A stretch of DNA of 64,000 nt from NCBI RefSeq assembly GCF_009696275.1, contig NZ_VUMI01000002.1, forward strand, positions 1 to 64,000, read 5' to 3'. This stretch comes from Eisenbergiella porci (GTDB lineage: Bacteria > Bacillota > Clostridia > Lachnospirales > Lachnospiraceae). The translations under genes and the position numbers were made by a program. The notes under the pieces are model-generated. The model did not search any database and was not told the origin of the DNA. It worked only from the letters and a program-made list of their open reading frames with translations. Below, one piece after another: positions 17,691-34,196 of this stretch; the stretch's first letter is position 1, and every line of letters begins with the position of its first letter.

Positions 17691-20504
17691 GTGTTTGAGT
17701 CAAAAAGCATTCAGGAAACATGCATACAGCTAGACAGCGATATAGACAAAGGACTGACGGAAAAGGAAGCGGCGAGGCGATACCAGGAATATGGAAAAAA
17801 TGAGCTGAAGGAACCGCGGAAGAAAACTGTGATTGAATCCTTCCTGGAGCAGCTTAACGATCCGCTGATTTATGTGCTGCTTGCAGCGGCCATCATTTCC
17901 CTCCTGCTTCATGAGGTGAGCGATGCGGTGATCATAGCCATTGTGGTATTCATGAATGCCATAGTGGGGATGATTCAGGAGGGAAAGGCACAGAAGGCCC
18001 TGGATTCCCTGAAAAAGCTGACAAGTCCCAGGGCCTACGTGATAAGGGAAGGGAAGGAGCGGGAGATTCCGGCGTCACAGCTGGTGGTGGGCGATATTGT
18101 CTGCCTTGACGCAGGCTGCCAGGTGCCCGCGGATCTGCGCCTGACCAGAACAAGCAGCCTGAAGGTGGAGGAATCAGCGCTTACCGGGGAGTCCCTGCCT
18201 ATTGAAAAGGACGCCGCTTTCATCGCCAGGGGTGCAGCCGCCTTCGGACGCAGCTCACAGTCCGGGAAAATGTCCGATCTGGCGGCAGCGGATTCCGGCC
18301 TGACGGCTGCGGGCAAACGGGAAGCAAAAGTACAGAAGGAGATGCACATTCCCCTGGGAGACCGGTATAACATGGCCTACATGTCCACCATTGTGACTTA
18401 TGGAAGAGGAGAGGGGATCGTTACCGCCACGGGCATGGACACGGAAATTGGGAAAATCGCCTCCCTCATCAACGAAAGCCATGAGGATATCACTCCCCTG
18501 CAGAAGCGTCTTGGGGAACTGGGAAAGATTTTGAGCCTGCTTTCCCTGCTTTTATGCGCGGCGCTGTTCCTGATAGCGCTGATTCAGAAGAGAAATATGA
18601 TTGAAATGCTCATCACCGCCATATCCCTGGCGGTTGCGGCGGTGCCGGAGGGGCTTCCCGCGGTGGTCACCATCTGCCTGGCCCTGAGCGTTACAAAAAT
18701 GGTGAAGGTACATACCATAGTCAGAAAGCTCCCCTCAGTGGAAACCCTGGGCGCGGTCAGCGTTGTGTGCACGGATAAAACAGGCACGCTGACCCAGAAT
18801 AAAATGACGGTGGAAACCTGCTTTACCAACCAGAAAATGGTGGGGAAAAAGGAACTGGCCCGGGAAGAATACCGGGAATTTTTAAAGGGCATGACCCTGT
18901 GCAACGACGCCGTACTGGAAGGCGGGGAACGAATCGGGGATCCCACGGAGCTGGCGCTTCTGGATTTGTCCGCGCGCTACGGCCTGCACCGGCAGGCGCT
19001 GGAAAAGGAATATCCTAGAACCAGGGAGCTTGCCTTTGACTCCACACGCAAGATGATGTCCACCTTCCATCAGCGGGGAAACCAGACGGTTACCTATACG
19101 AAGGGCGCGCCGGATGAAATCCTGAAAAAATGCACCGGCGTCCTGCTGTACGGAAAGCCTGTGCCCATATCGGACCAGCAGAGAAGACAGATAAAAAAAG
19201 CGGTGGAGGAAATGTCCTCCCAGGCGCTGCGGACCCTTGCCGTAGCCATGCGCACCGGCGGCAGCGGCCCGGTGGAGGCGGAGCTTACCTTTGTGGGGAT
19301 GGTGGGAATGAAGGATCCGGCCCGTCCGGAAGCGGCGAATGCCGTGGAACGGTTCCGGGATGCCGGCGTTACAACGGTGATGATAACCGGGGATCATGTG
19401 GATACGGCCTTTGCCATCGGAAAGCAGCTGGGGATAGTGAGCCGCCCGGAGCAGTGCATGACAGGGGAGGAGGTATCGCATCTGCCGGAGGAACGTTTCC
19501 TGAAGAAGCTGGATCAGGTGCGGGTGTTTGCCAGGGTGTCGCCGGAGCATAAGGTGAGGATTGTAAAGGGCTTTAAGGAAAAAGGAAATATCGTGGCCAT
19601 GACCGGAGACGGCGTAAACGACGCTCCCTCCCTGAAGGCGGCGGATATCGGGATTGCCATGGGAATGACAGGAACCGATGTGGCAAAGCAGGCCTCTGAC
19701 ATCATCCTTACGGACGATAATTTTGCCACGATAGAAAAGGCGATTGTGGAGGGCAGAGGGGTGTATGAGAACATCAAAAAATCCGTGATATTCCTCCTTT
19801 CCTCCAATCTGGGCGAAATCATGACCATGTTCCTGGCGGTGCTGTGCGGCCTGGCCTCCCCGTTGAAATCCAGCCACATCCTGTGGATTAACCTGATTAC
19901 AGATTCCCTTCCGGCGCTGGCGTTGGGGGTGGACGACAATGATGAGGAAAGCCTGATGCGCCGGCCGCCCCGGGATCCGAAGGAAAGTCTTTTCGCAGGC
20001 GGCGGCCTGGCCTGCACCTGTTTTTACGGACTGCTGATTGCGGGAATCAGCCTGACGGCATTTTTTACCATTCCCTATGCTGTAATTCTCGAAAAACAGA
20101 TTCCGCTGACCATCAATAATTTTGCCACGGTGCTTTCCCATGAAGCTATCCTGAACCGGGCGCAGACCTATGCCTTCACGGTTCTTGGCATGTCGCAGCT
20201 GTTCCATGCGGTGGGAATGCGGGATATGCGCAAATCCATATTCCGGATGAACCACTTTAACAACAAGCTGATGATAGCGGCCTGTGTGATCGGATTCCTG
20301 CTGCAGTTTGCCGTGACGGAAATACCGTTCCTGACGGCGGCGTTCGGAACCGCGCATCTGTCCCTGCGGGAATGGCTGCGTCTTGGCATCCTGGCGGCCT
20401 TCCCGCTGCTGGCCCATGAGCTGATGATCCTTTTTTCCTTTGACTTTGTAAAAAAAGGGAACCGGAAGCACAAGCTGCAGGCCAATACCGTTTCGGAATC
20501 ATAA
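17691..20504 (+). CDS. Calcium-translocating P-type ATPase (PMCA/PacL type)
   Basis: 937 residues; GTG start with AAGGAG 8 nt upstream. The order of parts is complete: N-terminal cation-ATPase domain, helices M1-M2, actuator domain with the TGES loop (EESALTGESLP), M4 with AAVPEGLPAVV, phosphorylation site DKTGTLTQ (Asp362), nucleotide domain (KGAPDEIL), hinge TGDGVNDAPSLKAADIG, and C-terminal M5-M10. The PEGLP motif marks calcium-type pumps. An Ala/Ser/Gly-rich insertion of about 40 residues lies between the TGES region and GDRYNMAY, longer than in its paralogue 2 kb downstream. It probably exports Ca2+ (or Mn2+). It stands alone and ends at a bidirectional terminator. Confidence 0.93.
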   Translation: MFESKSIQETCIQLDSDIDKGLTEKEAARRYQEYGKNELKEPRKKTVIESFLEQLNDPLIYVLLAAAIISLLLHEVSDAVIIAIVVFMNAIVGMIQEGKAQKALDSLKKLTSPRAYVIREGKEREIPASQLVVGDIVCLDAGCQVPADLRLTRTSSLKVEESALTGESLPIEKDAAFIARGAAAFGRSSQSGKMSDLAAADSGLTAAGKREAKVQKEMHIPLGDRYNMAYMSTIVTYGRGEGIVTATGMDTEIGKIASLINESHEDITPLQKRLGELGKILSLLSLLLCAALFLIALIQKRNMIEMLITAISLAVAAVPEGLPAVVTICLALSVTKMVKVHTIVRKLPSVETLGAVSVVCTDKTGTLTQNKMTVETCFTNQKMVGKKELAREEYREFLKGMTLCNDAVLEGGERIGDPTELALLDLSARYGLHRQALEKEYPRTRELAFDSTRKMMSTFHQRGNQTVTYTKGAPDEILKKCTGVLLYGKPVPISDQQRRQIKKAVEEMSSQALRTLAVAMRTGGSGPVEAELTFVGMVGMKDPARPEAANAVERFRDAGVTTVMITGDHVDTAFAIGKQLGIVSRPEQCMTGEEVSHLPEERFLKKLDQVRVFARVSPEHKVRIVKGFKEKGNIVAMTGDGVNDAPSLKAADIGIAMGMTGTDVAKQASDIILTDDNFATIEKAIVEGRGVYENIKKSVIFLLSSNLGEIMTMFLAVLCGLASPLKSSHILWINLITDSLPALALGVDDNDEESLMRRPPRDPKESLFAGGGLACTCFYGLLIAGISLTAFFTIPYAVILEKQIPLTINNFATVLSHEAILNRAQTYAFTVLGMSQLFHAVGMRDMRKSIFRMNHFNNKLMIAACVIGFLLQFAVTEIPFLTAAFGTAHLSLREWLRLGILAAFPLLAHELMILFSFDFVKKGNRKHKLQANTVSES

Positions 20505-20534
20505 CAAGCAGCTGTCCAGGACGGCGGAAATAAG

Positions 20535-20587
20535 AACAGACTGAATAAACCGGCCGGAATCCGGCCAGGCTTTATCAGTCTGTTTTT
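20535..20587. terminator. Bidirectional terminator
   Basis: A 10-bp outer stem (20535-20544 with 20575-20584) encloses an inner CCGG-rich hairpin and is followed by seven T on the plus strand. It lies between the convergent ATPase and XRE genes and can serve both. Confidence 0.8.
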
Positions 20588-20595
20588 TTAAATCT

Positions 20596-20910
20596 TTATT
20601 CTGGCCTGTACAGCCTTTCCAACATATCTGCGATCAGCTTGGTATCGTAATCATTTAACAGGCGGATATACTGAATGGCCCTTTGCTGCTGGGCCGAAGT
20701 ATGTTCCGTATCGTTAAAAAATTCCATGGGCGTAATGTTGAAATAATCGCATATGTAAAGAAATTCTGTCATGGAAGGCAGAGCCCGGCCGGAGGCAATG
20801 CTGTGAATATAGCTTGTACTGTGTCCGAGTTCAATGCTCATTTTTCTCTCTGTAACGTCTTTTTGGAGCCGAAGCTCGGTTATCCGATCCCGAATAAATT
20901 GTTCATCCAT
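20596..20910 (-). CDS. XRE-family HTH regulator
   Basis: 104 residues from the ATG at 20910, which has GGAGG 7-8 nt upstream; an in-frame ATG six codons earlier has none. An HTH_3 domain covers about residues 6-62: RDRITELRLQKDVTERKMS, the recognition helix STSYIHSIASGRALPS, then FLYICDYFNITPMEFF, the usual end of the Cro/CI fold. The C-terminal 35 residues are helical. Proteins of this size are stand-alone regulators, often in clostridial stress or developmental circuits. It is divergent from a small gene 155 bp away; no target is evident. Confidence 0.85.
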   Translation of the reverse strand: MDEQFIRDRITELRLQKDVTERKMSIELGHSTSYIHSIASGRALPSMTEFLYICDYFNITPMEFFNDTEHTSAQQQRAIQYIRLLNDYDTKLIADMLERLYRPE

Positions 20911-20985
20911 GAAATCGCCTCCCTCCATGTGATAATCATAATATACAATTGTTATAATTACGAATATTTATAGCGTCTGATATTG

Positions 20986-21014
20986 TTGAAACGTACGCTG
21001 GAATCGTCTATAAT
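20986..21014 (+). promoter_or_regulatory. Sigma-A promoter for the small gene at 21065
   Basis: TTGAAA (20986-20991), 17-bp spacer, TATAAT (21009-21014). The start of transcription would be about 45 bp before the ATG. Confidence 0.75.
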
Positions 21015-21064
21015 GAAGTAGCAGATGCACATAACAGACGTCTGCCGACAGGAGAAAATAATAA

Positions 21065-21298
21065 ATGAATAAAAAAAGTATTTATCGGAAGGTGGCAAAG
21101 GAGTATGGGGTAAGCGTCCAGGAAGTAAAGCAGGAAATGCAGGCAGCGTTGGAGCATACATACAAAAATACGCCAAATGACGGAATTACCGGAGCATGGC
21201 AGAGCAAGGTGCCGAAAAAAGGAAAAATTCCCACCCCGGATGAGCTGCTTCGGTATGCGCAGAGGGAACTTTTATGGAAGGAAAACGGAAAGGGTTAA
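21065..21298 (+). CDS. Small protein resembling the Spo0A C-terminal domain
   Basis: 77 residues with AGGAG 9 nt before the ATG and a good promoter. The first half (IYRKVAKEYGVSVQEVKQEMQAALEHTY) has the helix pattern of the last helices of the Spo0A DNA-binding domain, where an IAKKY..T..RVERAIRHAIE motif occurs. The second half is short, basic and proline-containing (SKVPKKGKIPTPDELL). Similar tiny proteins in Lachnospiraceae are often labelled as Spo0A C-terminal-domain-containing, but this one lacks the rest of that domain. DNA binding is possible, not shown. It lies between XRE and TetR regulators. Confidence 0.65.
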   Translation: MNKKSIYRKVAKEYGVSVQEVKQEMQAALEHTYKNTPNDGITGAWQSKVPKKGKIPTPDELLRYAQRELLWKENGKG

Positions 21299-21341
21299 AC
21301 CGGCTTGCCTGCAGTTTTTAAAATGAACATAGTACACGGCA

Positions 21342-21381
21342 AATAAGAAGCCCCCACAAAAAATGTGGAGGCTTCTTATTC
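21342..21381 (+). terminator. Terminator after the small Spo0A-like gene
   Basis: A 17-bp stem with one mismatch (21342-21358 with 21364-21380) and a 5-nt A loop. A T-rich stretch follows. The remainder up to the next promoter (21383-21570) is AT-rich with no gene seen. Confidence 0.75.
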
Positions 21382-21570
21382 TTATGAGGGGGGAGATAGT
21401 TTAACAAAACTTGTGAGTTATTGTTTGTCTATCTGTTTTTTATGATACAGGAAAAGTGTGTCCTAAGTGTGACGCAAATCAAAAAATCTTATAAAAAGTA
21501 TGAAGGATTTCTTTCCAAAATATAAAAAGAAAGCTTTTGGGGAGACTGTTTAATAAAAATAAAATAAATA

Positions 21571-21611
21571 ACTGACTTACTATTTACAAAAAGTCAGTCA
21601 GTTGCTATAAT
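21571..21611 (+). promoter_or_regulatory. TetR promoter with overlapping operator-like inverted repeat
   Basis: TTTACA (21583-21588), 17-bp spacer, TATAAT (21606-21611). The inverted repeat CTGACTT (21572-21578) and AAGTCAG (21591-21597) spans the -35 box and spacer, and a partial second copy (TCAGTT) follows. This is where an autorepressing TetR protein would bind. Confidence 0.7.
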
Positions 21612-21651
21612 ACACAAAAAGACGGCAGAACAGACAATGGCAGGTGACAGA

Positions 21652-22278
21652 ATGCGGGTAACGAAGGAACCGGAAATACGCCGGGCGGAGCTGATAGAAG
21701 CGGCCCGGCAGCTGTTTGACAAAAACGGAATCAAAAACACACAGGTCAGCCAGATTGTGGAAAAGGTAGGCGTTGCCAAGGGACTTTTTTACTATTATTT
21801 TAAATCCAAGGATGAAATAGTTAATGAGGTTGTGGATTTGGTAATGTCGGAGCTTAAGGAAGCCTCCCTGAAAATCCTGGCGGATACGCAGCTTACTTTT
21901 TATCAGAAAACGTCGGAATTCGTTGCGCTTTATATGCACATGATTGACCAGTTTTCAGGAGATGAGGAAGAGAATCTGGACAGCATGCTGGAAATCATTT
22001 CCCATAACCCCATCGCCCAGGATGCCAATGAGCTTCTGCAGGCACAGCTGGAACGGCTGATCCGGCAGGGGGTCAGGGAAGGGCATCTGACCATTGAGTA
22101 TCCGGAGGAAACCGTAAGAGTCCTGATTTTCGGACTGCTGGCGCAGTCCAGGAAGCGGCTCCTTTCCATGGAACAGGTGATTACGATCGTAGAGCAGACC
22201 ATGCATCTGCCGACCGGGTCACTGAAAGACGAAATGGTTTGGCAAAAGGAGCACAGGGCTTTGAACGGACCGCAGTAA
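21652..22278 (+). CDS. TetR/AcrR family regulator, likely autoregulated
   Basis: 208 residues from the ATG at 21652 (AGGTGA upstream); an ATG five codons earlier is possible. The N-terminal helix-turn-helix is clear (ELIEAARQLFDKNGIKNTQVSQI, then VAKGLFYYYFKSKDEI). The ligand domain contains ISHNPIAQDANELL and is otherwise unassigned. A TetR-type inverted repeat overlaps its own promoter, which suggests autorepression. It is 132 bp upstream of a second calcium-pump gene on the same strand with only a tandem repeat between them and no obvious terminator, so the two are probably co-transcribed and the regulator may control the pump. Confidence 0.88.
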   Translation: MRVTKEPEIRRAELIEAARQLFDKNGIKNTQVSQIVEKVGVAKGLFYYYFKSKDEIVNEVVDLVMSELKEASLKILADTQLTFYQKTSEFVALYMHMIDQFSGDEEENLDSMLEIISHNPIAQDANELLQAQLERLIRQGVREGHLTIEYPEETVRVLIFGLLAQSRKRLLSMEQVITIVEQTMHLPTGSLKDEMVWQKEHRALNGPQ

Positions 22279-25029: not shown

Positions 25030-25057
25030 GCTAGAGATGGAAATTTTTGCAAAATAT

Positions 25058-25107
25058 ATGGAGAAAACAGCCCTGTCACGGATGTGGACTGTTTTCTCCA
25101 TTTTTTT
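25058..25107 (+). terminator. Rho-independent terminator after the second calcium pump
   Basis: A 13-bp perfect stem (25058-25070 with 25089-25101) followed by seven T. Confidence 0.88.
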
Positions 25108-25190
25108 ATGCCCGGAAGTAACACAATATCCATGTTAAAAAAGCGATCCTCCATGCTAGAATCAGTTAACAAATTGCAGGAGGGAAAAAT

Positions 25191-26063
25191 ATGAACTGGA
25201 AAAAAAGCAAATCCATTCAGACGGGTCAGAAAAAGCAATTCGCTTATAAGCCCATGTATGGCATTATCATTGCCTTTAAGGATTACAGCATGAGAAAGGG
25301 GATCACGGGAAGCCCATGGAGCGGCTTTGACAATTTTCAACGACTGTTCAGCTCCTATTGGTTCCCCATCATATTAAAAAATACGTTAACCCTCAGCGGG
25401 TTGTCCCTGGTGTTGGGGTTCCCGATTCCGATCATCCTGGCGCTGACCCTTAATGAGGTATCAAACAAACGTTTCCGAAAAGGCTTTCAGACATTGTCTT
25501 ATGCGCCGCATTTCATATCAACGGTTGTCTTATGCGGTATGCTTACCTTGTTTCTGAATCCGACCTCCGGCGTAATTAACAGGTTTCTTTCCATGCTGGG
25601 CAGCGATACGGTCAATTTCCTTCAGGAACCGGCCATGTACAAATGGATTTACGTGCTCAGCGGCATCTGGCAGGAGATGGGCTGGGGAAGCATTATATAC
25701 TTTGCCACATTATCCGGAGTGGACAGGGCGCTGCTGGAGGCGGCCGATATTGACGGCGCTTCAAGGCTGCAGGAGATCTGGTATATCAATCTTCCGGTGC
25801 TGGTGGCGACGATTCTGATACTGCTGATACTTAACTGCGGCTCCCTGTTAAGCGTAGGGTATGAAAAGGTATACCTTTTGCAGAATCCTACGAATCTGAG
25901 CGCTTCGGAAGTGATTTCAACCTTTGTATATAAATCCGGTCTGGAAAAGGCGGACTTTTCCTTCGGAGCGGCGGCAGATTTGTTTAATTCAGTTGTGAAC
26001 ACGATTGTGCTGGTGCTTGCCAATACGATTTCCAGGCGTACTACGCAAACAAGCCTGTTCTGA
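25191..26063 (+). CDS. LplB-type sugar ABC permease missing its first membrane helix
   Basis: 290 residues with GGAGGG before the ATG. A basic start (MNWKKSKSIQTGQKKQ) joins directly to FAYKPMYGIIIAFKDY, which in this family follows transmembrane helix 1; the hydrophobic stretch of roughly 20-25 residues normally in between is absent. The remaining five helices and the EAA loop (LEAADIDGASRLQEIWYINLP) are intact. The reading frame is open, so a protein may be made, but membrane insertion would be affected. No binding-protein gene is near. The permease at 7034 lacks its N-terminus up to the same conserved motif. Confidence 0.8.
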   Translation: MNWKKSKSIQTGQKKQFAYKPMYGIIIAFKDYSMRKGITGSPWSGFDNFQRLFSSYWFPIILKNTLTLSGLSLVLGFPIPIILALTLNEVSNKRFRKGFQTLSYAPHFISTVVLCGMLTLFLNPTSGVINRFLSMLGSDTVNFLQEPAMYKWIYVLSGIWQEMGWGSIIYFATLSGVDRALLEAADIDGASRLQEIWYINLPVLVATILILLILNCGSLLSVGYEKVYLLQNPTNLSASEVISTFVYKSGLEKADFSFGAAADLFNSVVNTIVLVLANTISRRTTQTSLF

Positions 26064-26081
26064 TGGGAGGGGAAAGAAGAG

Positions 26082-26466
26082 ATGAAAATAAAAAGGCTGA
26101 GTAAGACGAAAATAAATAACGGGATTTTTAATTTTATCGTATACGCCCTGTTGATTTTTCTCGCAGTGCTGATGCTGTACCCGCTGGTTTTTGTATTAAG
26201 CGCCTCCTTCAGCGATCCCAAGGCCGTCTCCGGCGGGGAGATGCTGCTCCTTCCGATACGGCCTACCCTGGAAGGATATAAATACCTGCTGCAGTATGAA
26301 GAAATCTGGGCCGGTTATATGAATACCATTTTTTATGTGTTCGTGGGTACGGTACTGAATCTGGCGGCGACCCTCCCCTGTGCCTATGCCATGTCCAGAA
26401 ATGACCTGAAGGGCCGGAAGTATCTGATGATTTTCTTTATGATTACCATGTACTTCAGCGGAGCAT
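26082..26466 (+). pseudogene. N-terminal part of a YtcP-type sugar ABC permease
   Basis: 128 codons, with a GGAGGGG site upstream. The first helix (FNFIVYALLIFLAVLMLYP), the motif SASFSDPKAV and the helices up to FFMITMYFSGA match the start of YtcP-type permeases. The family then continues with a GGLIP motif and about 160 more residues including the EAA loop; here the frame ends within two codons, and the DNA becomes AT-rich and belongs to an HD-domain gene. The partner upstream is also damaged, so this transporter is non-functional as assembled. Confidence 0.8.
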
Positions 26467-28408
26467 GATGCGTCTCATTCGATTAATATATTGAATGCAA
26501 TCGAACTGGTTTTGGGACGCAAGAGAGTAAAGGAGCTGTCAGCAAGCGATTTATGGCTTCTATTGGAGTGCGCTTATTTTCATGATACAGGAATGGCATT
26601 AAGCAACGAAGAAATCAGGGAACTTTGGACCGGAAATAACGAATTTAAATCTTTCTTGTATACAGCCATGGAGACTAATGATTTTGATAAGAAACAGGCT
26701 GCTTTGTATTATAAGCAGATGAATGATCTTTTGGCGGGAAGGAAACTGAGTGGGCCTAAGATAGAGTTTCCTTTGGATTGGCCAGTCGAAATGGAAAAGA
26801 ATATCACTCTTTTGACAGGGGAATTTATCCGTAAAAATCATCCCCAAAAAGCCCGTGAAAACATGGAGTCAATGTCCGTGCAATAGAACATTTCGGTAAA
26901 CTGCCCGTCTTAAGCGAAACTCATTATAAAAAGCATAAGGCGCTTACGAATTTCTGCATTGAGGAACAGCAGATAATGGCAGAATCTTTTTCAGACACGG
27001 AAGAAGTTTGCCGCGTAACAGGAGAATGGTTTCAATGGCTTGATTCGGAAGTGAATAATATAATATGTGGTCGGAATGGAAGAGGAATGCATCAACAATC
27101 TGTCAGTAATTGGAAGGAGCTGGAAAAACCGTAGCCTATATCAAAAAGCAGCAGTTGAAATGCCGGCATGGCTGAAACCTACAGGTGGTTTTGGGATTGG
27201 TTTACAATCCGCATTTATGTTGACAGATCAGGTAAAGATAATGACTAGATCCGTACAGGAAATAAAAAGTCATAAGTTGATATTGGATTCACCTGCCAGG
27301 AAGGGAACCGTAACCAGATCGGAGGAAGGAGATGTTCCGGTAGGGACAGAAATTACCTTTGAGGTATTGCTGGATAAGATGTCAGGCCTGATCAAAGAAG
27401 CAGCTGAACTGAAATTGGATAGGCATACCGAATTAAATCTTACGTTTGATAAGGATTGTGAAGACGGCTTTCGTAAAGAAAACATAACAGATTATATGAT
27501 ACGATTTTTGAAATATTATGTTGCAAGAGCTTTTCCGGATACATTATTTCCCATACAGCTTTATGAAGGAGACGGAAAGGTATATACCCACAAAAGCTTA
27601 TTTGCAGATGAAAAAAGAGGAGGGTTTGGTCCTTGCAAATTAAAAAAATAAAAAGGGGTGATGAGGAATATCGATATCATATATCGGAAAATATGTCTGT
27701 TAGGATATGGGATGTAAAGGATAATTCTTTCGTCTGTATAAAAAGCTGGCCCAGTCAAATTTCCGGGGCGGGAACGATGGCTACCACATTGCTGAATACA
27801 TTTTGTTATAAAGGGGCAAGAGTGGAAAAGCTGAGGGAAGAAGACAGGAATATAAATTTGATATGTCTTTCTTCCGATTAACAGAAGATGAAGAGTGTAT
27901 TTACGCTATGATTGTTGGATTTAACGGTGATTGGGAATATTGCGATCAGATAATAGTTGAAAAAGAAGCGTTTTTAAAAAAGGCATTTCGATGGAACCGG
28001 GTACGATATATCGGAAAAAATATCAGTTGCCCTGAATATGATAATCTGCGGGTGGATGCACTGCCCATGCAGAATGCTTCAAAATGGTTCGGGAAACGTA
28101 AGGAGCGATATCTTATATCTCCTATAAGCAATGCTGTTTATTTGGAAATTTTGAAAGAGGCAGATATTCAACAGGATGAACTGAAGGAAACTGAGAAAAT
28201 CATAATGAAGCGATTTATCAGTCAGGACAGATTTGTGGAAATTGTTACCGGGGCGGAGGAATATAATTTTCTTATTTCCTGGGTGAGGGAACATCAGGCA
28301 GAAAGCGAAAAACTGGACATGGATGAGATCCGAAATTTATACCAAATAATGGTCAGAGATATTTATGACCTAAATTTACAGGAAAAGCCGATGGAAAGCG
28401 AGGCATAA
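26467..28408 (+). pseudogene. Broken HD-domain / GHKL (HSP90-like) ATPase protein
   Basis: At least four pieces in different frames seem to derive from one large protein. Piece A (26470-26886): HSINILNAIELVLG and LLLECAYFHDTGMAL, an HD phosphohydrolase-type core without its N-terminus. A second stretch (about 26865-27060, with EHFGKLPVLSETHYKKHK) continues in another frame. Piece B (27067-27651): GMEEECIN, IGRSW and LKPTGGFGIGLQSAFM, the G-boxes of a GHKL/HSP90-type ATPase; the upstream N-box is missing. Piece C (27633-27881) and piece D (27863-28408, possibly still translatable) complete the C-terminal part after further frameshifts. HD plus GHKL proteins of about 900 residues occur sporadically in bacteria, function unknown. 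The DNA is much AT-richer than its left flank, suggesting transfer. Confidence 0.6.
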
Positions 28409-28409
28409 T

Positions 28410-29113
28410 ATGGGCGAGAACAAGTTGAACCATGTGGGCGTTATTATGGATGGTAATCGGCGCTGGGCCAAGAAGCAAGGGCTAAAATCAGTACTGATGG
28501 GGCATGAGAAGGGTGTTAATAAATTAATGGAATTATGTACCTGGTGTCTTGATAAGTCTGTTCCATATTTATCGGTATATGCATTTTCAACAGAAAATTG
28601 GAATAGATCGCAGCCAGAGATTGAAGGCTTGTTTGCTATCATGGAGAAGTTTTTTCGTGAGGAATTAGGGACTGCATTGAGAAAGGAATCAGAATAAAGG
28701 CAGTTGGAGATATTGGCAGGTTGGGAAAAAAGCAACAGGCTTTGATAAGCGATGCACAGCATCAGACTGCTGAATACAAAAATCTGGTAGTTCAGATTGC
28801 AATCAGTTATGGGGGAAAGGATGAAATCACCAAATCGGTTAGGAAAATAGCGGAAAAACTGAAGCTGGGGGAAATCAGCTCGGATGATATTACAGAAAAA
28901 ACGATAGAGAGTTGTCTTGATACAGCTGATATACCTTCCATAGATGTTGTAATTCGCACGGGTGGTAATCACAGACTCAGTAATTTTTTTACATGGCAGA
29001 CCGCATATTCGGAAATTTATTTTACGGATACGTTGTGGCCTGATTTTTCTAGGGAAGAATTTTATCAAATTGTAGCTGATTATGAAGGTGTTAGTATAAA
29101 TATGGGAAGATAG
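28410..29113 (+). pseudogene. Cis-prenyltransferase (UppS-like) with one frameshift
   Basis: The first frame gives HVGVIMDGNRRWAKKQG, the substrate loop of undecaprenyl-diphosphate synthase-type enzymes with catalytic Asp14, followed by YLSVYAFSTENWNRS. It stops at 28697. The continuation in another frame (IRIKAVGDIGRLG, AISYGGKDEI, then VIRTGGNHRLSNF and DTLWPDF) completes the enzyme to 29113. Adding one A in the short run at 28682-28684 joins the two. The RTGG..RLSNF motif differs from the usual RTSGE, so it may be a paralogue with another acceptor rather than the housekeeping uppS. It is 1 bp after the HD/GHKL remnant and 7 bp before the kinase gene. Confidence 0.75.
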
Positions 29114-29120
29114 GATAGTT

Positions 29121-29933
29121 ATGAAAAAGTTAACTCTGATAAAAATGGGTGGAGCGATTTTGACTGATAAGTCAAAGCCATGTGTCATACGATATGATTT
29201 GATAAAAGAACTTACAGGGCAGATACGGGAGTGTCTGCCTTTTTTGAAAGGTTCTGTAGTCATTGGAAATGGAGGAGGTTCTTTCGGACATTATTTTGCG
29301 GAAAAGTATTCTCTGATGGATGGAATAACCAATGAAGATGGATGGATGGGATTTTGCAAAGGGAAAAATGGGAATGCTTTCCTTCATACAAAATTAATAG
29401 AGGAATTTATAAATCAGGGAATTTTAGCATGTCCTTATCCAATTGACAATATTATGAACGATAATATTAACAAGGGAGAAGGTATCAATCGGTGGAACCA
29501 GTTGTTTACTTATCTTGAACATGGCATTTTACCAGCTGTCTATGGAGATATAATATATGATTCGGTAAAAGGATGTAAAATTGTTTCTACAGAAACTGTT
29601 TTTTCCTTGTTAAACAGGGCCGTTATATTGAATCCGGACTGGGGGTATTCCATAGATAAAATTATCTTTTGCACAAATAAAGATGGAATAGAAAATTTAA
29701 AAGGAGAGTTGCTTCCTTTTATTGATAAAACACGATTTAACCAATGGGAAATATTCAGAAAGAGTGGAGACGGATATGATGTGACCGGCGGTATGTACGG
29801 AAAAGTTATGATGGCTATGAATACAGAAATATCTTGCCCTGTCTATATTGTAAATGGAAATCATCCAGAACGTTTGTCGGGATTGCTCAGAGGGGAGGAA
29901 ATAATTGGGACCTGTATCTATTCCAATGTTTAA
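29121..29933 (+). CDS. Isopentenyl-phosphate-kinase-like amino acid kinase family protein
   Basis: 270 residues, intact. The order of motifs fits isopentenyl phosphate kinase: IKMGGAILTDKSKP at the N-terminus (Lys8), GNGGGSFGH (Gly-rich loop ending in His57, a position where a histidine is characteristic of IPK), PAVYGDIIYD in the middle, DVTGGMYGK near residue 220 and YIVNGNHPERL near the end. IPK phosphorylates isopentenyl phosphate to IPP with ATP and is best known from archaea and plants. Lying next to a prenyltransferase gene supports an isoprenoid role. An alternative is a related kinase for another phosphomonoester. The gene is AT-rich. Confidence 0.78.
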   Translation: MKKLTLIKMGGAILTDKSKPCVIRYDLIKELTGQIRECLPFLKGSVVIGNGGGSFGHYFAEKYSLMDGITNEDGWMGFCKGKNGNAFLHTKLIEEFINQGILACPYPIDNIMNDNINKGEGINRWNQLFTYLEHGILPAVYGDIIYDSVKGCKIVSTETVFSLLNRAVILNPDWGYSIDKIIFCTNKDGIENLKGELLPFIDKTRFNQWEIFRKSGDGYDVTGGMYGKVMMAMNTEISCPVYIVNGNHPERLSGLLRGEEIIGTCIYSNV

Positions 29934-30143
29934 ATGGGCATGGATAGTAACGCCGGGTATCCGTTCAGTTCTCGAACAGTTACAACACCGGAAATCTACA
30001 AGCATGTGCAAACTATAATCCTGGAACTAAAGGTGGCGCATACCTATGCTCTGCTTGAAGAAAATGCAGAGGAAGCCTTACAGAAGGTGGAAGAAAATGG
30101 TATGATGCACAATTACGGCTGGAAAGATACCAAACATTTGTGA
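29934..30143 (+). CDS. Short hypothetical ORF at the end of the AT-rich island
   Basis: 69 codons directly after the kinase stop, with no ribosome site. The C-terminal half (ILELKVAHTYALLEENAEEALQKVEE) is a well-formed helix and looks protein-like, whereas the first 20 residues do not. It may be the truncated end of a lost gene. Function unknown. Confidence 0.3.
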   Translation: MGMDSNAGYPFSSRTVTTPEIYKHVQTIILELKVAHTYALLEENAEEALQKVEENGMMHNYGWKDTKHL

Positions 30144-30197
30144 AATATGGGATTGCTTTTTATAAGAAGCTGTGTAAGGTGATTAGTAAATAGCAGG

Positions 30198-30236
30198 AAG
30201 GAATTGAGCAGATTTTGTTCGCTCAATTCCTTTTTT
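30198..30236 (+). terminator. Rho-independent terminator closing the AT-rich island
   Basis: A 12-bp perfect stem (30198-30209 with 30221-30232), 11-nt loop and a T run. From here to 30451 no gene is seen. Confidence 0.85.
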
Positions 30237-30451
30237 GATATGTGCCTTTGTACGGATTGATTATTAGTTAAAGCGGATTACTTTATTGACAAGATGTCTG
30301 ATGCAACATATGATAGGAAGAATATAATTCGTATATCCGTATGCTGCAAATGGAACATTTGGAGGCTGGGATTTTTGAAATCCGGGAAGAATAAGAAAGA
30401 AGTTTTGGAGCATGCGCAAAGATTAAGCTATAGTGTAGGAGGTACTGCTGT

Positions 30452-30877
30452 TTGACACTTTCATTGATTAAGCCTTTTTATATCCATCTGCTGTTTACCA
30501 TTCTATGGTTTCTCTTCATGACCTGGTTGTCCCACCAGGACGGCGAACACACCAGCAAAACAAGTCTGGAGCTTGCAAATCATATGAAGTATTGGTTCCC
30601 GGTAAAGGATATCGGTAAACTTAACAAACAGTTGAGAAGGTCGGCCCATGTGATTCTTTTTGCAGTCCTTACAATTTTACTCACAGGTACCCTGAGTATG
30701 GCTAAGGTATCCGCCGCCGGTATGGCGGTGGGATTAATCCTGTCAGCCTTCTGGGCATGGGCGGATGAGGCAACCAAACCGTTGATTCAGGGACGTCATT
30801 TTTCCTGGTTTGATGTGCGTTTGAACTGGATTGGAATCGGGATTGGTATACTGGGGGGAAGCCTTATTTATAAATAA
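30452..30877 (+). CDS. VanZ-like family membrane protein
   Basis: 141 residues from a TTG start 9 nt after AGGAGG. Four hydrophobic segments are visible. The motifs FMTWLSHQDGEHTSKTS, LRRSAHVILFAVLT and FWAWADEATKPLIQGRHFSWFDVRLNW fit the VanZ-like family (the F-S-H/D and DE..Q...GR motifs). The founding member contributes to teicoplanin resistance, but most relatives have no known role and are common in Lachnospiraceae chromosomes. It is a single gene. Confidence 0.85.
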   Translation: MTLSLIKPFYIHLLFTILWFLFMTWLSHQDGEHTSKTSLELANHMKYWFPVKDIGKLNKQLRRSAHVILFAVLTILLTGTLSMAKVSAAGMAVGLILSAFWAWADEATKPLIQGRHFSWFDVRLNWIGIGIGILGGSLIYK

Positions 30878-30910
30878 TATGTAGCTGTCCGGTGCCATTA
30901 CGGTTATTAT

Positions 30911-31105
30911 TCATATCCATCTGAATCCATACAAAACGAACATGTCTGCCTGTGCGACATTAACATAAATGAAAGTTGATTGCTCCGTACCGTGCATTCC
31001 TGTAATTTGCAGACGGCATTCACAGTTCGGTATGCCGGCTTTCTTGTGTTCCAACCGGCTTGCTCTGTCAAATGTCGATGTGAAGCTGCAAGCAAGCTTG
31101 CCCAT
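30911..31105 (-). pseudogene. Possible remnant of a small protein gene
   Basis: The C-terminal two thirds of this 64-codon frame (AGIPNCECRLQITGMHG, then YVNVAQADMFVLYGFRWI) read like real protein. The N-terminal part runs over a nested inverted repeat and there is no ribosome site. It may be the end of a lost gene; family not recognised with confidence. Confidence 0.3.
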
Positions 31106-31113
31106 TCACATCG
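31076..31113. other. Nested inverted repeat
   Basis: CGATGTGAA (31076-31084) pairs with TTCACATCG (31105-31113), and the enclosed sequence contains a second GCAAGC/GCTTGC hairpin. A weak 5-bp hairpin with a T run (31139-31161) may be a terminator on the plus strand. Nothing else is seen in 30878-31200 apart from the possible remnant gene. Confidence 0.5.
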
Positions 31114-31200
31114 CCGCTTGCAGGAACTTTCACAGCAGATCCCCTTCAGGGATGTTTTTTTAGCACTCGTGAATCATTTGTTTACGGTCAGCGCGAAGCA

Positions 31201-31230
31201 CAGGCCAGCGCAGTTACTTGCGCTGGCCTG
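31201..31230 (-). terminator. Strong hairpin downstream of the GH2 gene
   Basis: A perfect 12-bp GC-rich stem (31201-31212 with 31219-31230) and 6-nt loop lie 56 bp after the GH2 stop. It lacks a T run on the minus strand, so it may stabilise the 3' end of the mRNA rather than terminate. Confidence 0.5.
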
Positions 31231-31285
31231 CCGGATAGTTACAATAATATCTTCATAAAACTCCTGCGAATGCTGATTATCGGTG

Positions 31286-33664
31286 TTATTTCTTCTTGAC
31301 CTTATTCAACTCCGCATTCACCACCTGCAGGGCATTTTCCGGTACATTATCACCCATGCCCATTCCGGTCATCATTTCCATCAGCCCTTCCACGCTTTTT
31401 TCGCCCATCATCCCCATCATACTCTTCTTCAGCTTCATTCCCGTCATGGCATAGAGCGCACCGGCCAGCACAGCTGCGGCGTCCTCCTGGTCCAGAACCT
31501 CCTTCACCGTGTCCTTTATGGAAAAGAACCCCTCCGGAAATTCCATAGCCGCATTGGCATCCACAACCGCAGCCTCGTCAAACCAGTTAGCGGCGCCCTC
31601 CATATCGTCCTCATCCTCTTCCACAGGAAGCGTATAGATTTCAGGCTTTGTCTCCACCTTTTCCAGCGTCATAGTATCGGAACACTCGCCCGCATAGGCG
31701 GTCAGGCAGGTAAAACCGTCAAAAAGAGGGACCTGCTCAAACAAAAATACCTTATCACCCTTCAAGGTCTGATATAACTCCCCGTTTACATACAGGCTCA
31801 CTTCCGGCTGATTGGAATACACCTTTACACGGGTACTTCCGCCGCCGGCCATGGAAGCTTCCGGGACGCTGTTTCCGTTGCCTTTTTTATTCTCAGCGGG
31901 GTTTGTACCATCCAGGCGGTCCGTATCCCCGGGTCGCTGCGCATACCGCCGTCCGCACATATGCACAAAGGGCTCCCTGCTCCAATACGCTTTATAAAGA
32001 TAAAAAGCATCCTTTTTAATTTTCCGATCCAGCGTCACCAGCCCCTTATTATTCCGGCCTGCAGTGCCGCCTTCGTTGCGCGCCGCGCAGCCGAAATCAA
32101 ACATATTCCACACATGGGTGCTCCATAAATAGGGGCGGGCCATAAGGATTTCGGCCATGTGCTCGTGATACTCCGCCTGATAGCTTTCCGAGTAATCCCG
32201 GCATTTCGGCTCATCGGGCTGATAGGTTATGATACCCTCCGCGCCGTATTCCGACAGTCCAAGGCAGATTTCAGGATGCTTTTCGTGAAAATTATCCAGC
32301 CATTTTTCATTATCTGTGTATTTTCCGCCGTACCAGCCAAAATAATGATTATAGCTTTCCAGATCCGTGATGCCGTGAAGACGGCTGTCCAGGGGAACCA
32401 TGCTCACATGGGCCATGGTAGTCAGGCGGGTGGGATCGATCTCTTTTACCAGCGCGTTCAAATCCTTATGGTTTTCCACAAGGCCTGGTTTTTCGCCGGC
32501 GATGGTGATTTCATTGGAAATTCCCCAGAAACAGATGGATGGGTGATTATAATTCTGATACACCAGCTCCTGCATCTGTGTCCGGCAGTTTTCATGCGCC
32601 TTTGGGTCGTCGCTCTGGCTGCTGATATAGGGAATTTCCGCCCATACTATAAAACCATATTCGTCACAGGCATCATAAAAATCCCTGCTGTGCTGGTAAT
32701 GGGCAAGACGCACGGTATTCGCTCCCAGCTCGTGGATGAGGGCGGCGTCCTTATAGTGCTCCTGCCTGGTGAGTGCATTTCCTTTATAAAGGCGATCCTG
32801 ATGGCGGGAAACACCGCGCAGCATCATAGGTTTACCGTTAAGGAAAAATCCCTTTTCAGGATCCACGGCAAAGGAACGGATGCCGAAACGGCAGCTGATT
32901 TCGTCCACGGTTTCGTTCCGGTAAACAAGGGCTGCGGTGCAGGTATACAGATAAGGATCTTCCACACCCTGCCACAGATGGGCTTTGGGCAGAAAGACGC
33001 TTGTCCCCGGATTTTCGGCAGGCCGCCAGCATTCGGCCGTCTTTTTGCCCTGTGCGTCCGTAATGGTATAGCATACCGTATAATCGGCATCCGCATTTTT
33101 TACCCAGCTTTGCAGCTTCAGGAAGGCGCTTTCCCCATCCGGCTGGGAGGTGACGGAAAGGCCGGGCGCGCCCCAGTATTCCAGGTCAAAGTGTACCCGG
33201 GGAACGATAATGAGGTTAACGCCGCGGTACAGTCCGCCATAGAAGGTGAAATCCGCCATACGCGGGTAAATATGAGGGCGGTCGGAATTGTCCGCTGCGA
33301 TGGCGATCAGGTTGGCTTTCCCTGAGCCTTCCGGGTGGAGATAGTCCGTGATATCAGCGGTAAAGGAGGAAAAACCTCCTTCATGATAAGCGGCTTCTTT
33401 GCCATTGACGAACACCCTTCCGGAAAGGGAAGCGGCCAGGACCTCCACATACAAGCGGCTGTCACATAAGCCGGAGGGCGTGGGGAATTCCTTTGCATAC
33501 CAGCAGGCGCCTCTGTAGTAGCTGCCTTTGCCGTCCTGTCCGTCCACCGCATTCCAGGTGTGGGGCAGCGTCACGGTTTCCCAGTCAGCAGGAAGCGTCA
33601 GGGGAAGTCCCGTATCTTCTTTTCGGAAGGACCAGTTTTCGTTGAAGGGAATCACTTTTCTCAT
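31286..33664 (-). CDS. Glycoside hydrolase family 2 (beta-galactosidase type)
   Basis: 792 residues with AAGGAG before the ATG and no signal peptide. An N-terminal jelly-roll sugar-binding domain (LPHTWNAVDGQDG, YYRGACWYAKEF), an immunoglobulin-like domain and the TIM barrel (LRGVSRHQDR, NTVRLAHYQHS) are in order. The acid/base glutamate is Glu385 in FWGISNE and the nucleophile Glu472 in LGLSEYGAEG. A C-terminal extension of about 100 residues, acidic and then rich in Met and Gly (KSMMGMMGEK), is unusual and unassigned. The protein most likely cleaves beta-galactosides inside the cell; beta-glucuronides cannot be ruled out from sequence alone. No transporter adjoins it. Confidence 0.9.
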   Translation of the reverse strand: MRKVIPFNENWSFRKEDTGLPLTLPADWETVTLPHTWNAVDGQDGKGSYYRGACWYAKEFPTPSGLCDSRLYVEVLAASLSGRVFVNGKEAAYHEGGFSSFTADITDYLHPEGSGKANLIAIAADNSDRPHIYPRMADFTFYGGLYRGVNLIIVPRVHFDLEYWGAPGLSVTSQPDGESAFLKLQSWVKNADADYTVCYTITDAQGKKTAECWRPAENPGTSVFLPKAHLWQGVEDPYLYTCTAALVYRNETVDEISCRFGIRSFAVDPEKGFFLNGKPMMLRGVSRHQDRLYKGNALTRQEHYKDAALIHELGANTVRLAHYQHSRDFYDACDEYGFIVWAEIPYISSQSDDPKAHENCRTQMQELVYQNYNHPSICFWGISNEITIAGEKPGLVENHKDLNALVKEIDPTRLTTMAHVSMVPLDSRLHGITDLESYNHYFGWYGGKYTDNEKWLDNFHEKHPEICLGLSEYGAEGIITYQPDEPKCRDYSESYQAEYHEHMAEILMARPYLWSTHVWNMFDFGCAARNEGGTAGRNNKGLVTLDRKIKKDAFYLYKAYWSREPFVHMCGRRYAQRPGDTDRLDGTNPAENKKGNGNSVPEASMAGGGSTRVKVYSNQPEVSLYVNGELYQTLKGDKVFLFEQVPLFDGFTCLTAYAGECSDTMTLEKVETKPEIYTLPVEEDEDDMEGAANWFDEAAVVDANAAMEFPEGFFSIKDTVKEVLDQEDAAAVLAGALYAMTGMKLKKSMMGMMGEKSVEGLMEMMTGMGMGDNVPENALQVVNAELNKVKKK

Positions 33665-33852: not shown

Positions 33853-34196
33853 ATATGGTATAATGTCGACGTAGCCGACATTATACCTGCGCATACTGTT
33901 TTCTGCGTTCACCGCAGAAAATCAGGCGCTGAATTCTGCCGGAGGCCCGTATCCGCGAAGCGGATATGGTATAATGTCGACGTAGCCGACATTATACCTG
34001 CGCATACTGTTTTCTGCGTTCACCGCAGAAAATCAGGCGCTGAATTCCGCCGGAGGCCCATATCCGCGAAGCGGATATGGTATAATGTCGACGTAGCCGA
34101 CATTATACCTGCGCATACTGTTTTCTGCGTTCACCGCAGAAAATCAGGCGCTGAATTCCGCCGGAGGCCCATATCCGCGAAGCGGATATGGTATAG
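33853..34196. repeat. 111-bp tandem repeat, three copies, each with three hairpins
   Basis: ATATGGTATAATG starts at 33853, 33964 and 34075, and a truncated copy starts at 34186, so the period is exactly 111 bp and the units are nearly identical. Each unit holds three perfect inverted repeats: TATAATGTCG/CGACATTATA with a 7-nt loop, TTTTCTGCG/CGCAGAAAA with a 5-nt loop, and TATCCGC/GCGGATA with a 3-nt loop. Because 111 is divisible by three, a 124-codon frame runs through, but it has no ribosome site or protein-like content. The array ends about 55 bp before addB. The rest of 33665-33850 holds only the GH2 promoter region. Confidence 0.88.

Follow-up and report, generated by a model that had tools for sequence, protein, structure and literature searches.

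An isopentenyl phosphate kinase-type enzyme and a divergent cis-prenyltransferase, likely a recurring pair, in a decayed gene array of Eisenbergiella porci

Why would a clostridium carry a gene of the isopentenyl phosphate kinase (IPK) type directly behind a divergent copy of uppS and the remains of an ATPase gene? IPKs are known as suppliers of isopentenyl diphosphate (IPP), chiefly in archaea and plants. The question is raised by a stretch of 64,000 nucleotides of Eisenbergiella porci (contig NZ_VUMI01000002.1, positions 1-64,000, forward strand), referred to here as the window. Its positions 26467-29933 are AT-rich and hold a wrecked HD-CE/HSP90-like gene (gene 1), a frameshifted paralogue of the cis-prenyltransferase gene uppS (uppS2), and an intact IPK-type kinase gene, all on the + strand (Table 1). 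A preliminary description of this DNA had joined the three genes into one system, perhaps acquired by transfer and dying at this site. The analysis reported here indicates that UppS2 and the IPK-type kinase are likely a real pair that recurs in other bacteria. The explanation to which we give about an even chance is that the array is decayed, that UppS2 and the kinase are a co-inherited pair, and that the kinase feeds a diphosphate to a dedicated cis-polyprenyl lipid synthesis carried out by UppS2.

Much of the preliminary description was borne out. The genes are as tightly spaced as it claimed, with gaps of 1 bp between gene 1 and uppS2 and of 7 bp between uppS2 and the kinase gene. Its HD plus HSP90-like, UppS-like, and IPK-like assignments are supported by matches to PF24391, HSP90 structure chains, PF01255, and NF040647, respectively. 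The motifs GGGSFGH, DVTGGMYGK, and RTGGNHRLSNF are all found in the window, and the AT-rich stretch of about 4 kb (GC content of 0.36-0.42 over 26400-30200) indeed lies in GC-richer surroundings, with about 0.46-0.58 in most of the flanking DNA. Another low-GC stretch of the window is located at 20400-21800 (0.40-0.43).

Pairing of the kinase with UppS2

The pairing was assessed from the exact size of the longest contig recorded for each protein, without reading gene context, by comparing the best 120 of 490 kinase relatives from the protein search with the best 120 of 7910 UppS relatives that passed among 8000 scored candidates. The number of matches expected by chance was taken from pairs whose contig sizes differ by 1-50 bp. 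Eight kinase/UppS pairs had identical contig sizes of at least 3 kb, against 0.19 expected, namely, 33,898 bp (P0003/P0158), 20,845 bp (P0005/P0162), 22,552 bp (P0010/P0167), 66,429 bp (P0028/P0210), 15,188 bp, 15,228 bp, 3,233 bp, and 16,158 bp. All eight fall within the kinase clade of the window, where they account for 8 of the 24 members on contigs of at least 3 kb, as compared to none of the 58 other IPKs. A ninth match, at 1816 bp, involves a kinase from outside this clade and was treated as a chance event. If the 3,233-bp contig is one and the same for both proteins, no more than about 1.8 kb can separate the two genes.

The kinase and UppS distances were also closely correlated (Mantel r of 0.94, reached by 0 of 10000 permutations) over nine pairs, the ninth being the window's own relatives; these related pairs are not independent, and the result is read as matched descent and not as a precise probability. 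If the pair is real, eight is a lower bound, because the UppS side was confined to the best 120 and clustering at 90% may give partners different longest contigs. In a control set of 80 more distant IPK loci, neither a UppS nor an HD-CE/HSP90 gene was present in the flank examined.

Pocket and tail residues of the two enzymes

The kinase passes the archaeal-type IPK model NF040647, and its nearest solved structures are IPKs. The catalytic residues His57 and Lys228 are kept in all 31 clade rows, and Lys8 is kept in 27, the other 4 rows being truncated. Family score, catalytic residues, and fold thus agree with its earlier assignment as an IPK-type enzyme. Another idea is that the kinase acts on some other phosphate or phosphonate, as FomA does on fosfomycin, and that its link to UppS2 is a protection of cell-wall or isoprenoid synthesis. 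The FomA model gave only 23.6 bits with a cut-off of 550, and IPK structures score higher, so that we consider this idea very improbable.

Where the window's clade departs from other IPKs is the substrate pocket. Among the best 120 relatives, 31 have Gly81-Lys82-Asn85 and one, P0030, has Gly-Arg-Asn; these 32 kinases form a single clade with a support of 1.0, whereas the other 88 have Val (65) or Thr (23) at position 81. The clade thereby swaps V/T-Q/A-A at substrate-near positions for Gly81-Lys82-Asn85. Position 81 aligns with V73 of the Thermoplasma acidophilum IPK (counted from H50), which is pocket position R2. Available passages of PMC8500459 give I, V, or T at R2 of characterized IPKs and tie smaller residues at R1 and R2 to the acceptance of longer alkyl chains, and a passage of PMC4823809 lists V73 and M77 among 19 substrate-contact or channel residues. 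The equivalents of V73 and M77 in the window kinase are Gly81 and Asn85, and the alkyl pocket of its clade is unlike that of characterized IPKs at R2. The clade members are therefore likely to be active IPK-type enzymes with an altered pocket, in which Gly81 may make room for a substrate that exceeds isopentenyl phosphate in length or polarity.

These residues have to be weighed against the simpler possibility that the enzyme is an ordinary IPK that converts isopentenyl phosphate to IPP and so raises the supply for UppS2, with an unchanged substrate. The family model, the nearest structures, and the conserved catalytic residues would all fit such an enzyme, but the pocket triplet has changed clade-wide. 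Furthermore, the genome encodes Dxr of the methylerythritol phosphate route (498.8 bits) and gave no match at an E value of 0.01 to the mevalonate-diphosphate decarboxylase model TIGR01240, the only decarboxylase family searched. A mevalonate route is hence unlikely in this genome, and with Dxr present and TIGR01240 unmatched there is no obvious source of isopentenyl phosphate. We regard the ordinary IPK as unlikely.

The preliminary description held an IPK to be unusual in this group of bacteria, and the genome searches agree. The samples used (family, class, phylum, and "relatives") repeat genomes, and their counts are not additive. At an E value of 1e-20 the kinase was found in its own genome only among 391 class, 398 phylum, and 190 "relatives" genomes, and among 397 family genomes searched at an E value of 0.001 the 36 others matched at 31 bits or less, with no strong match beyond the genome itself. 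In a genome-wide scan with the kinase alignment, all matches listed were distant IPKs (25-33% identity) from archaea, Chloroflexi, cyanobacteria, and other bacteria, including Chloroflexi and Nostoc loci; these 80 loci make up the control set mentioned above. No kinase was found on the viral contigs and phages searched. Plasmids yielded three distant IPKs. Two of these are carried by Nostoc plasmids, where the annotated neighbors include no UppS. These two (L132 and L133) are lone IPK genes whose products are 27-29% identical to the window kinase, and each stretch also carries a DNA cytosine methyltransferase gene and an ASCH-domain gene.

UppS2 has the PF01255 score and the DGN...R, TEN, and RTxx.R.SNF motifs of a cis-prenyltransferase. 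The housekeeping UppS of the genome is encoded elsewhere (C2:35319) and is 39% identical to P0158. When compared to 30 housekeeping UppS drawn from the loci of the UppS genome searches, the 120 best-listed relatives of UppS2, together with L181 from genome G209, form one clade with a support of 0.79. The preliminary description had singled out an altered RTGG..RLSNF motif. The replacement of Glu by Asn (RTGGN) does hold in 111 of the 120 relatives as opposed to Glu in 30/30 housekeeping proteins, but the clearer differences lie elsewhere: DGNRR is present in 120/120 relatives and in 0/30 housekeeping UppS, which have Gly as in DGNGR, and the C-terminal RXG motif (Arg in 28 and Lys in 2 of the 30) has become NXG in 119 of 120, with a tail that mostly ends in Lys or Arg. 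RTGGN alone as a sign of altered chemistry was set aside, as the solved UppS 6szg has Asp at this position; it serves as a marker, not as proof. Since DGNRR, RTGGN, and NXG replace DGNGR, RTxxE, and RXG, we class the protein only as a cis-prenyltransferase and not as UppS proper. In excerpts of two studies, the RXG tail helps to form the donor and acceptor sites of the human cis-prenyltransferase (PMC7573591), and its absence from MM_0014 accompanies the use of unusual acceptors (PMC8131916).

Intact copies exist for UppS2. P0157 is a full-length UppS with 17 member sequences that is 97% identical to the window protein, and the break in uppS2 is therefore not common to all copies. All eight listed relatives with a taxon in their source name are labeled "Lachnospiraceae bacterium". 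Plasmids contained 119 UppS records, all below 60% identity to the window protein, and viral contigs one distant UppS with 36% identity. At L211:5111-6953, a UppS2 gene (RTGGD, end VNKGK) adjoins a polyprenyl synthetase gene on a contig without an IPK, which is a second setting for this subfamily.

Taken together, the pairing and these residues suggest a bacterial route in which prenyl monophosphates would be recharged for a special lipid. In intact versions, where both enzymes would be active, the kinase would add a phosphate to a prenyl monophosphate, and the diphosphate so formed would serve UppS2 in the synthesis of a dedicated cis-polyprenyl lipid; the NXGK tail and the RTGGN motif of UppS2 may be matched to this kinase-linked chemistry. 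The kinase substrate is a guess from the pocket positions and the partner enzyme. Since both gene 1 and uppS2 are disrupted, this route is expected to be inoperative in the window genome. Several observations weigh against this explanation. Sixteen of the 24 clade kinases on contigs of at least 3 kb have no UppS match among the best 120, and the adjacency of the two genes in relatives is deduced from equal contig size, which is read as the same contig. Lys82 and Asn85 raise the polarity of the pocket and do not obviously favor a prenyl chain. In addition, the only high-scoring UppS2 besides that of the window among 299 family genomes (G209, 361 bits; others at most 260 among the matches listed) is encoded beside a polyprenyl synthetase, in a metabolic gene cluster, on a 9.9-kb contig without an IPK.

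Gene 1 and the variable block

The first two genes were said to be broken, which is correct, and gene 1 is more damaged than was stated. In its family an HD-CE domain is followed by an HSP90-like ATPase, but complete HD and ATP-binding residues are not kept in the window copy. When the frames are read against the alignment of intact relatives, gene 1 has lost, beyond its frame breaks, the N-terminus, the part that holds the final HD Asp, the N-box of the ATPase, and one later stretch. At about 26466-26469 its left edge directly joins a truncated ABC-permease gene. The ATPase piece matched HSP90 structure chains best at 3h80 (E value of 3.3e-6). A model of the intact relative P0121 had a mean predicted local distance difference test (pLDDT) score of 73.5 and matched HSP90 chains with an E value of 2.3e-13, at a TM-score of only 0.27.

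Table 1. Features of the three-gene array and of the block that contains it (window positions).
Feature	Positions	Strand	Evidence
Gene 1, HD-CE piece without N-terminus	26467..26883	+	PF24391, 50.5 bits (cut-off 27); A3 profile match from 26461
Gene 1, following piece, different frame	26880..27131	+	Frames read against alignment of intact relatives
Gene 1, HSP90-like ATPase piece without N-box	27067..27648	+	HtpG/HSP90 models, 28-30 bits; A3 profile
Gene 1, piece in different frame	27636..27881	+	Frames and alignment of intact relatives
Gene 1, C-terminal piece	27863..28408	+	Like C-terminal part of intact relatives
Gene 2 (uppS2), N-terminal part	28410..28697	+	PF01255, 94.6 bits (cut-off 27)
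Gene 2 (uppS2), C-terminal part, different frame	28721..29113	+	PF01255, 132.9 bits (cut-off 27); TIGR00055, 129.8 bits (cut-off 109.55)
Gene 3, intact IPK-type kinase, 270 amino acids	29121..29933	+	NF040647, 136 bits (cut-off 120)
Block absent at orthologous site of same-genus genome G401	25030..31301		Flanks 110 bp apart in L163
Displaced ABC-transporter operon piece	25037..26469	+	About 80% identical to operon elsewhere in G401 and G407; PF00528 in 25191-26060

A search with the pieces of gene 1 returned 36 proteins, all HD-CE; it covered proteins of up to 1107 amino acids, and two matches were exactly that long, so that closer, longer relatives may be missing. HD-CE/HSP90 genes matched in 12 of 299 family genomes at an E value of 1e-25, the window's own genome included. 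The searches of viral contigs and of phages gave four HD-CE/HSP90 loci and one match, respectively. Nineteen HD-CE/HSP90 loci were compiled (3 plasmid, 11 genome, 1 phage clone, and 4 viral contigs); the gene was confirmed by BLASTP in 18 of them, not in L161, and in L158 as a 136-amino-acid piece only. The partnership of gene 1 with the pair rests solely on the 1-bp spacing in the window. Because of this spacing gene 1 was probably co-transcribed with uppS2, but a UppS or IPK gene was near the HD-CE/HSP90 gene in 0/19 loci, and no contig size is common to the HD list (proteins of up to 1107 amino acids) and the kinase or UppS lists. Of the recurrence that the preliminary description proposed to check, the uppS-kinase part is thus likely on the basis of shared contig sizes, whereas a system of all three genes has so far found no counterpart within these searches.

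The gene 1 family is found repeatedly in defense settings. A PADLOC scan of 18 neighbors from 11 loci (the first 8 picked after viewing reading frames; L153, L154, L155, L158, and L161 not included) gave good matches in 5 loci: DRT UG24 (1207 bits) and RTas1808 (314 bits) in L151, RTas1808 (199 bits) with a weak SLATT match in L152, PDC-M31A (523 bits) and PDC-M31B (358 bits) in L162, a HEC-01A-like ATPase (113 bits) in L159, and a GajB-like gene (132 bits) in L135. L156 had one weak match, and L136, L157, L160, and L214 had none; the matches in L134 come from an ABC-F protein and were discounted as ATPase cross-matches. The DRT UG24 reverse transcriptase beside the HD-CE/HSP90 gene at L151:4151-12043 itself has an HD-CE domain. 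In two P2-like viral contigs, L215 and L216, the HD-CE/HSP90 gene lies between the replication gene A and the portal gene, a site that a passage of PMC9122126 describes as the P2 hotspot; in L214 it adjoins gene A. The genes in L215 and L216 are candidates for phage defense, and some relatives of gene 1 suggest a defense-type ATPase switch.

A defense role of the gene set is possible. The three genes might form an anti-phage system in which the HD-CE/HSP90 protein would detect infection and activate the pair, and the pair would then alter the lipid-carrier pool or the membrane and thereby make the infected cell unable to support the phage any longer; every functional step of this scheme is conjectural. 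The 1-bp gap, the defense-type neighbors and P2 hotspot position of the relatives, and the strain variability of the block (see below) speak for it. On the other side, in addition to the lack of UppS and IPK genes in the 19 loci, neither the window kinase, uppS, and HD/HSP90 pieces (E value of 0.01) nor the intact HD-CE/HSP90 proteins P0144 and P0121 had a PADLOC match, the latter two also lacking a PHROG family match; the kinase is on no phage or viral contig searched; and 6 of the 11 loci scanned had no good PADLOC match. We consider such a system quite unlikely, and we are just as skeptical of its boldest form, in which the HD-CE/HSP90 protein is a sensor ATPase that drives the kinase and the cis-prenyltransferase to make an unusual polyprenyl lipid upon phage attack. 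Were that form true, it would be the first anti-phage system to act via isoprenoid chemistry.

Alternatively, gene 1 may be a chance neighbor of a two-gene module within a patchwork of scraps, which would be compatible with a co-inherited kinase/UppS2 pair and to which we assign a modest chance, well short of even. The surroundings favor it. The block is strain-variable: in the same-genus genome G401, the P-type ATPase gene (window end 25029) and the glycoside hydrolase gene (ending near 31302) are 110 bp apart; both flanks of the empty site were seen in G401 only, not in G407. Block 25030-31301 is therefore either extra in the window genome or lost in G401, its junctions being known from the assembly alone. 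It is a patchwork of gene scraps that includes a displaced ABC-operon piece, a fragment at 29934-30143, and a VanZ-like gene, and none of the 19 HD-CE/HSP90 loci has either enzyme. The 1-bp spacing on the same strand argues against chance, and the search for gene 1 relatives was blind to proteins longer than 1107 amino acids.

The second permease gene of the ABC piece (26082-26465) is cut off at the gene 1 junction, and the match to the G401 operon stops at 26469, where the G401 gene continues. The former neighbors of this operon sit on contig C60 of the window's own genome, without the operon itself. Right after the kinase gene there is a short open reading frame (29934-30143) with 77% similar DNA at C62:208131 of the same genome; its PF08011 match is below threshold, and its assignment as a fragment of the AAA/PDDEXK_9 family was rejected on that score. 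The VanZ-family gene spans 30452-30877 (PF04892, 42.2 bits; cut-off 30.1), and a short palindrome-bearing element at 31158-31257 is repeated, in many similar versions, on further contigs of the genome. Outside the block, 33853-34195 holds three copies of a 121-nucleotide unit at 111-nucleotide spacing, 98-100% alike and open in one frame; similar DNA occurs at other places in the genome and in G401.

Comparison with known systems

No paper describing such a gene set was found in the open-licence literature, which also gave nothing relevant on HD-CE and no study that joins IPK with HSP90, undecaprenyl, and conflict systems; in the accessible part of PMC13386471, IPK serves as a tool for synthesis and the word "undecaprenyl" is confined to the references. 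What the locus adds is a separate IPK-type clade that has its own pocket residues and is likely accompanied by a cis-prenyltransferase subfamily of its own. Should the HD-CE/HSP90 gene be part of the set, this would tie isoprenoid chemistry to phage defense. HD-CE/HSP90 genes in DRT and P2-hotspot neighborhoods are of the same family as gene 1 but stand apart from it in having no UppS or IPK gene nearby in any of the 19 loci.

Archaeal IPKs (3k4o, 3lkk/3ll5, and 7lnt) differ from the window's clade in its Gly at R2, where the excerpted account of characterized enzymes has I, V, or T, and in Lys82 and Asn85. The clade is also likely paired with a UppS paralogue, which none of the 80 more distant IPK loci has in the flank examined. 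The fosfomycin kinase FomA (3d41) is remote, as the score on its family given above indicates.

UppS2 shares PF01255 with UppS, and its C-terminal part alone exceeds the TIGR00055 cut-off, but it is separated from UppS by the identity of 39% and the three replaced motifs noted above. Its family scores best on bacterial UppS structures, with 225 bits compared to 187 for DHDDS of the DHDDS/NgBR enzyme. The Arg pair of DGNRR presumably corresponds to R37/R38 of DHDDS. Passages of PMC7573591 report that yeast Nus1 has Asn in place of the RXG Arg and that NgBR ends in RLGK, with its terminal carboxylate in the active site. MM_0014 of Methanosarcina mazei is, like UppS2, a cis-prenyltransferase without RXG; according to the part of PMC8131916 drawn on here, its tail is TLGG and not NXGK, and it can O-prenylate alcohols.

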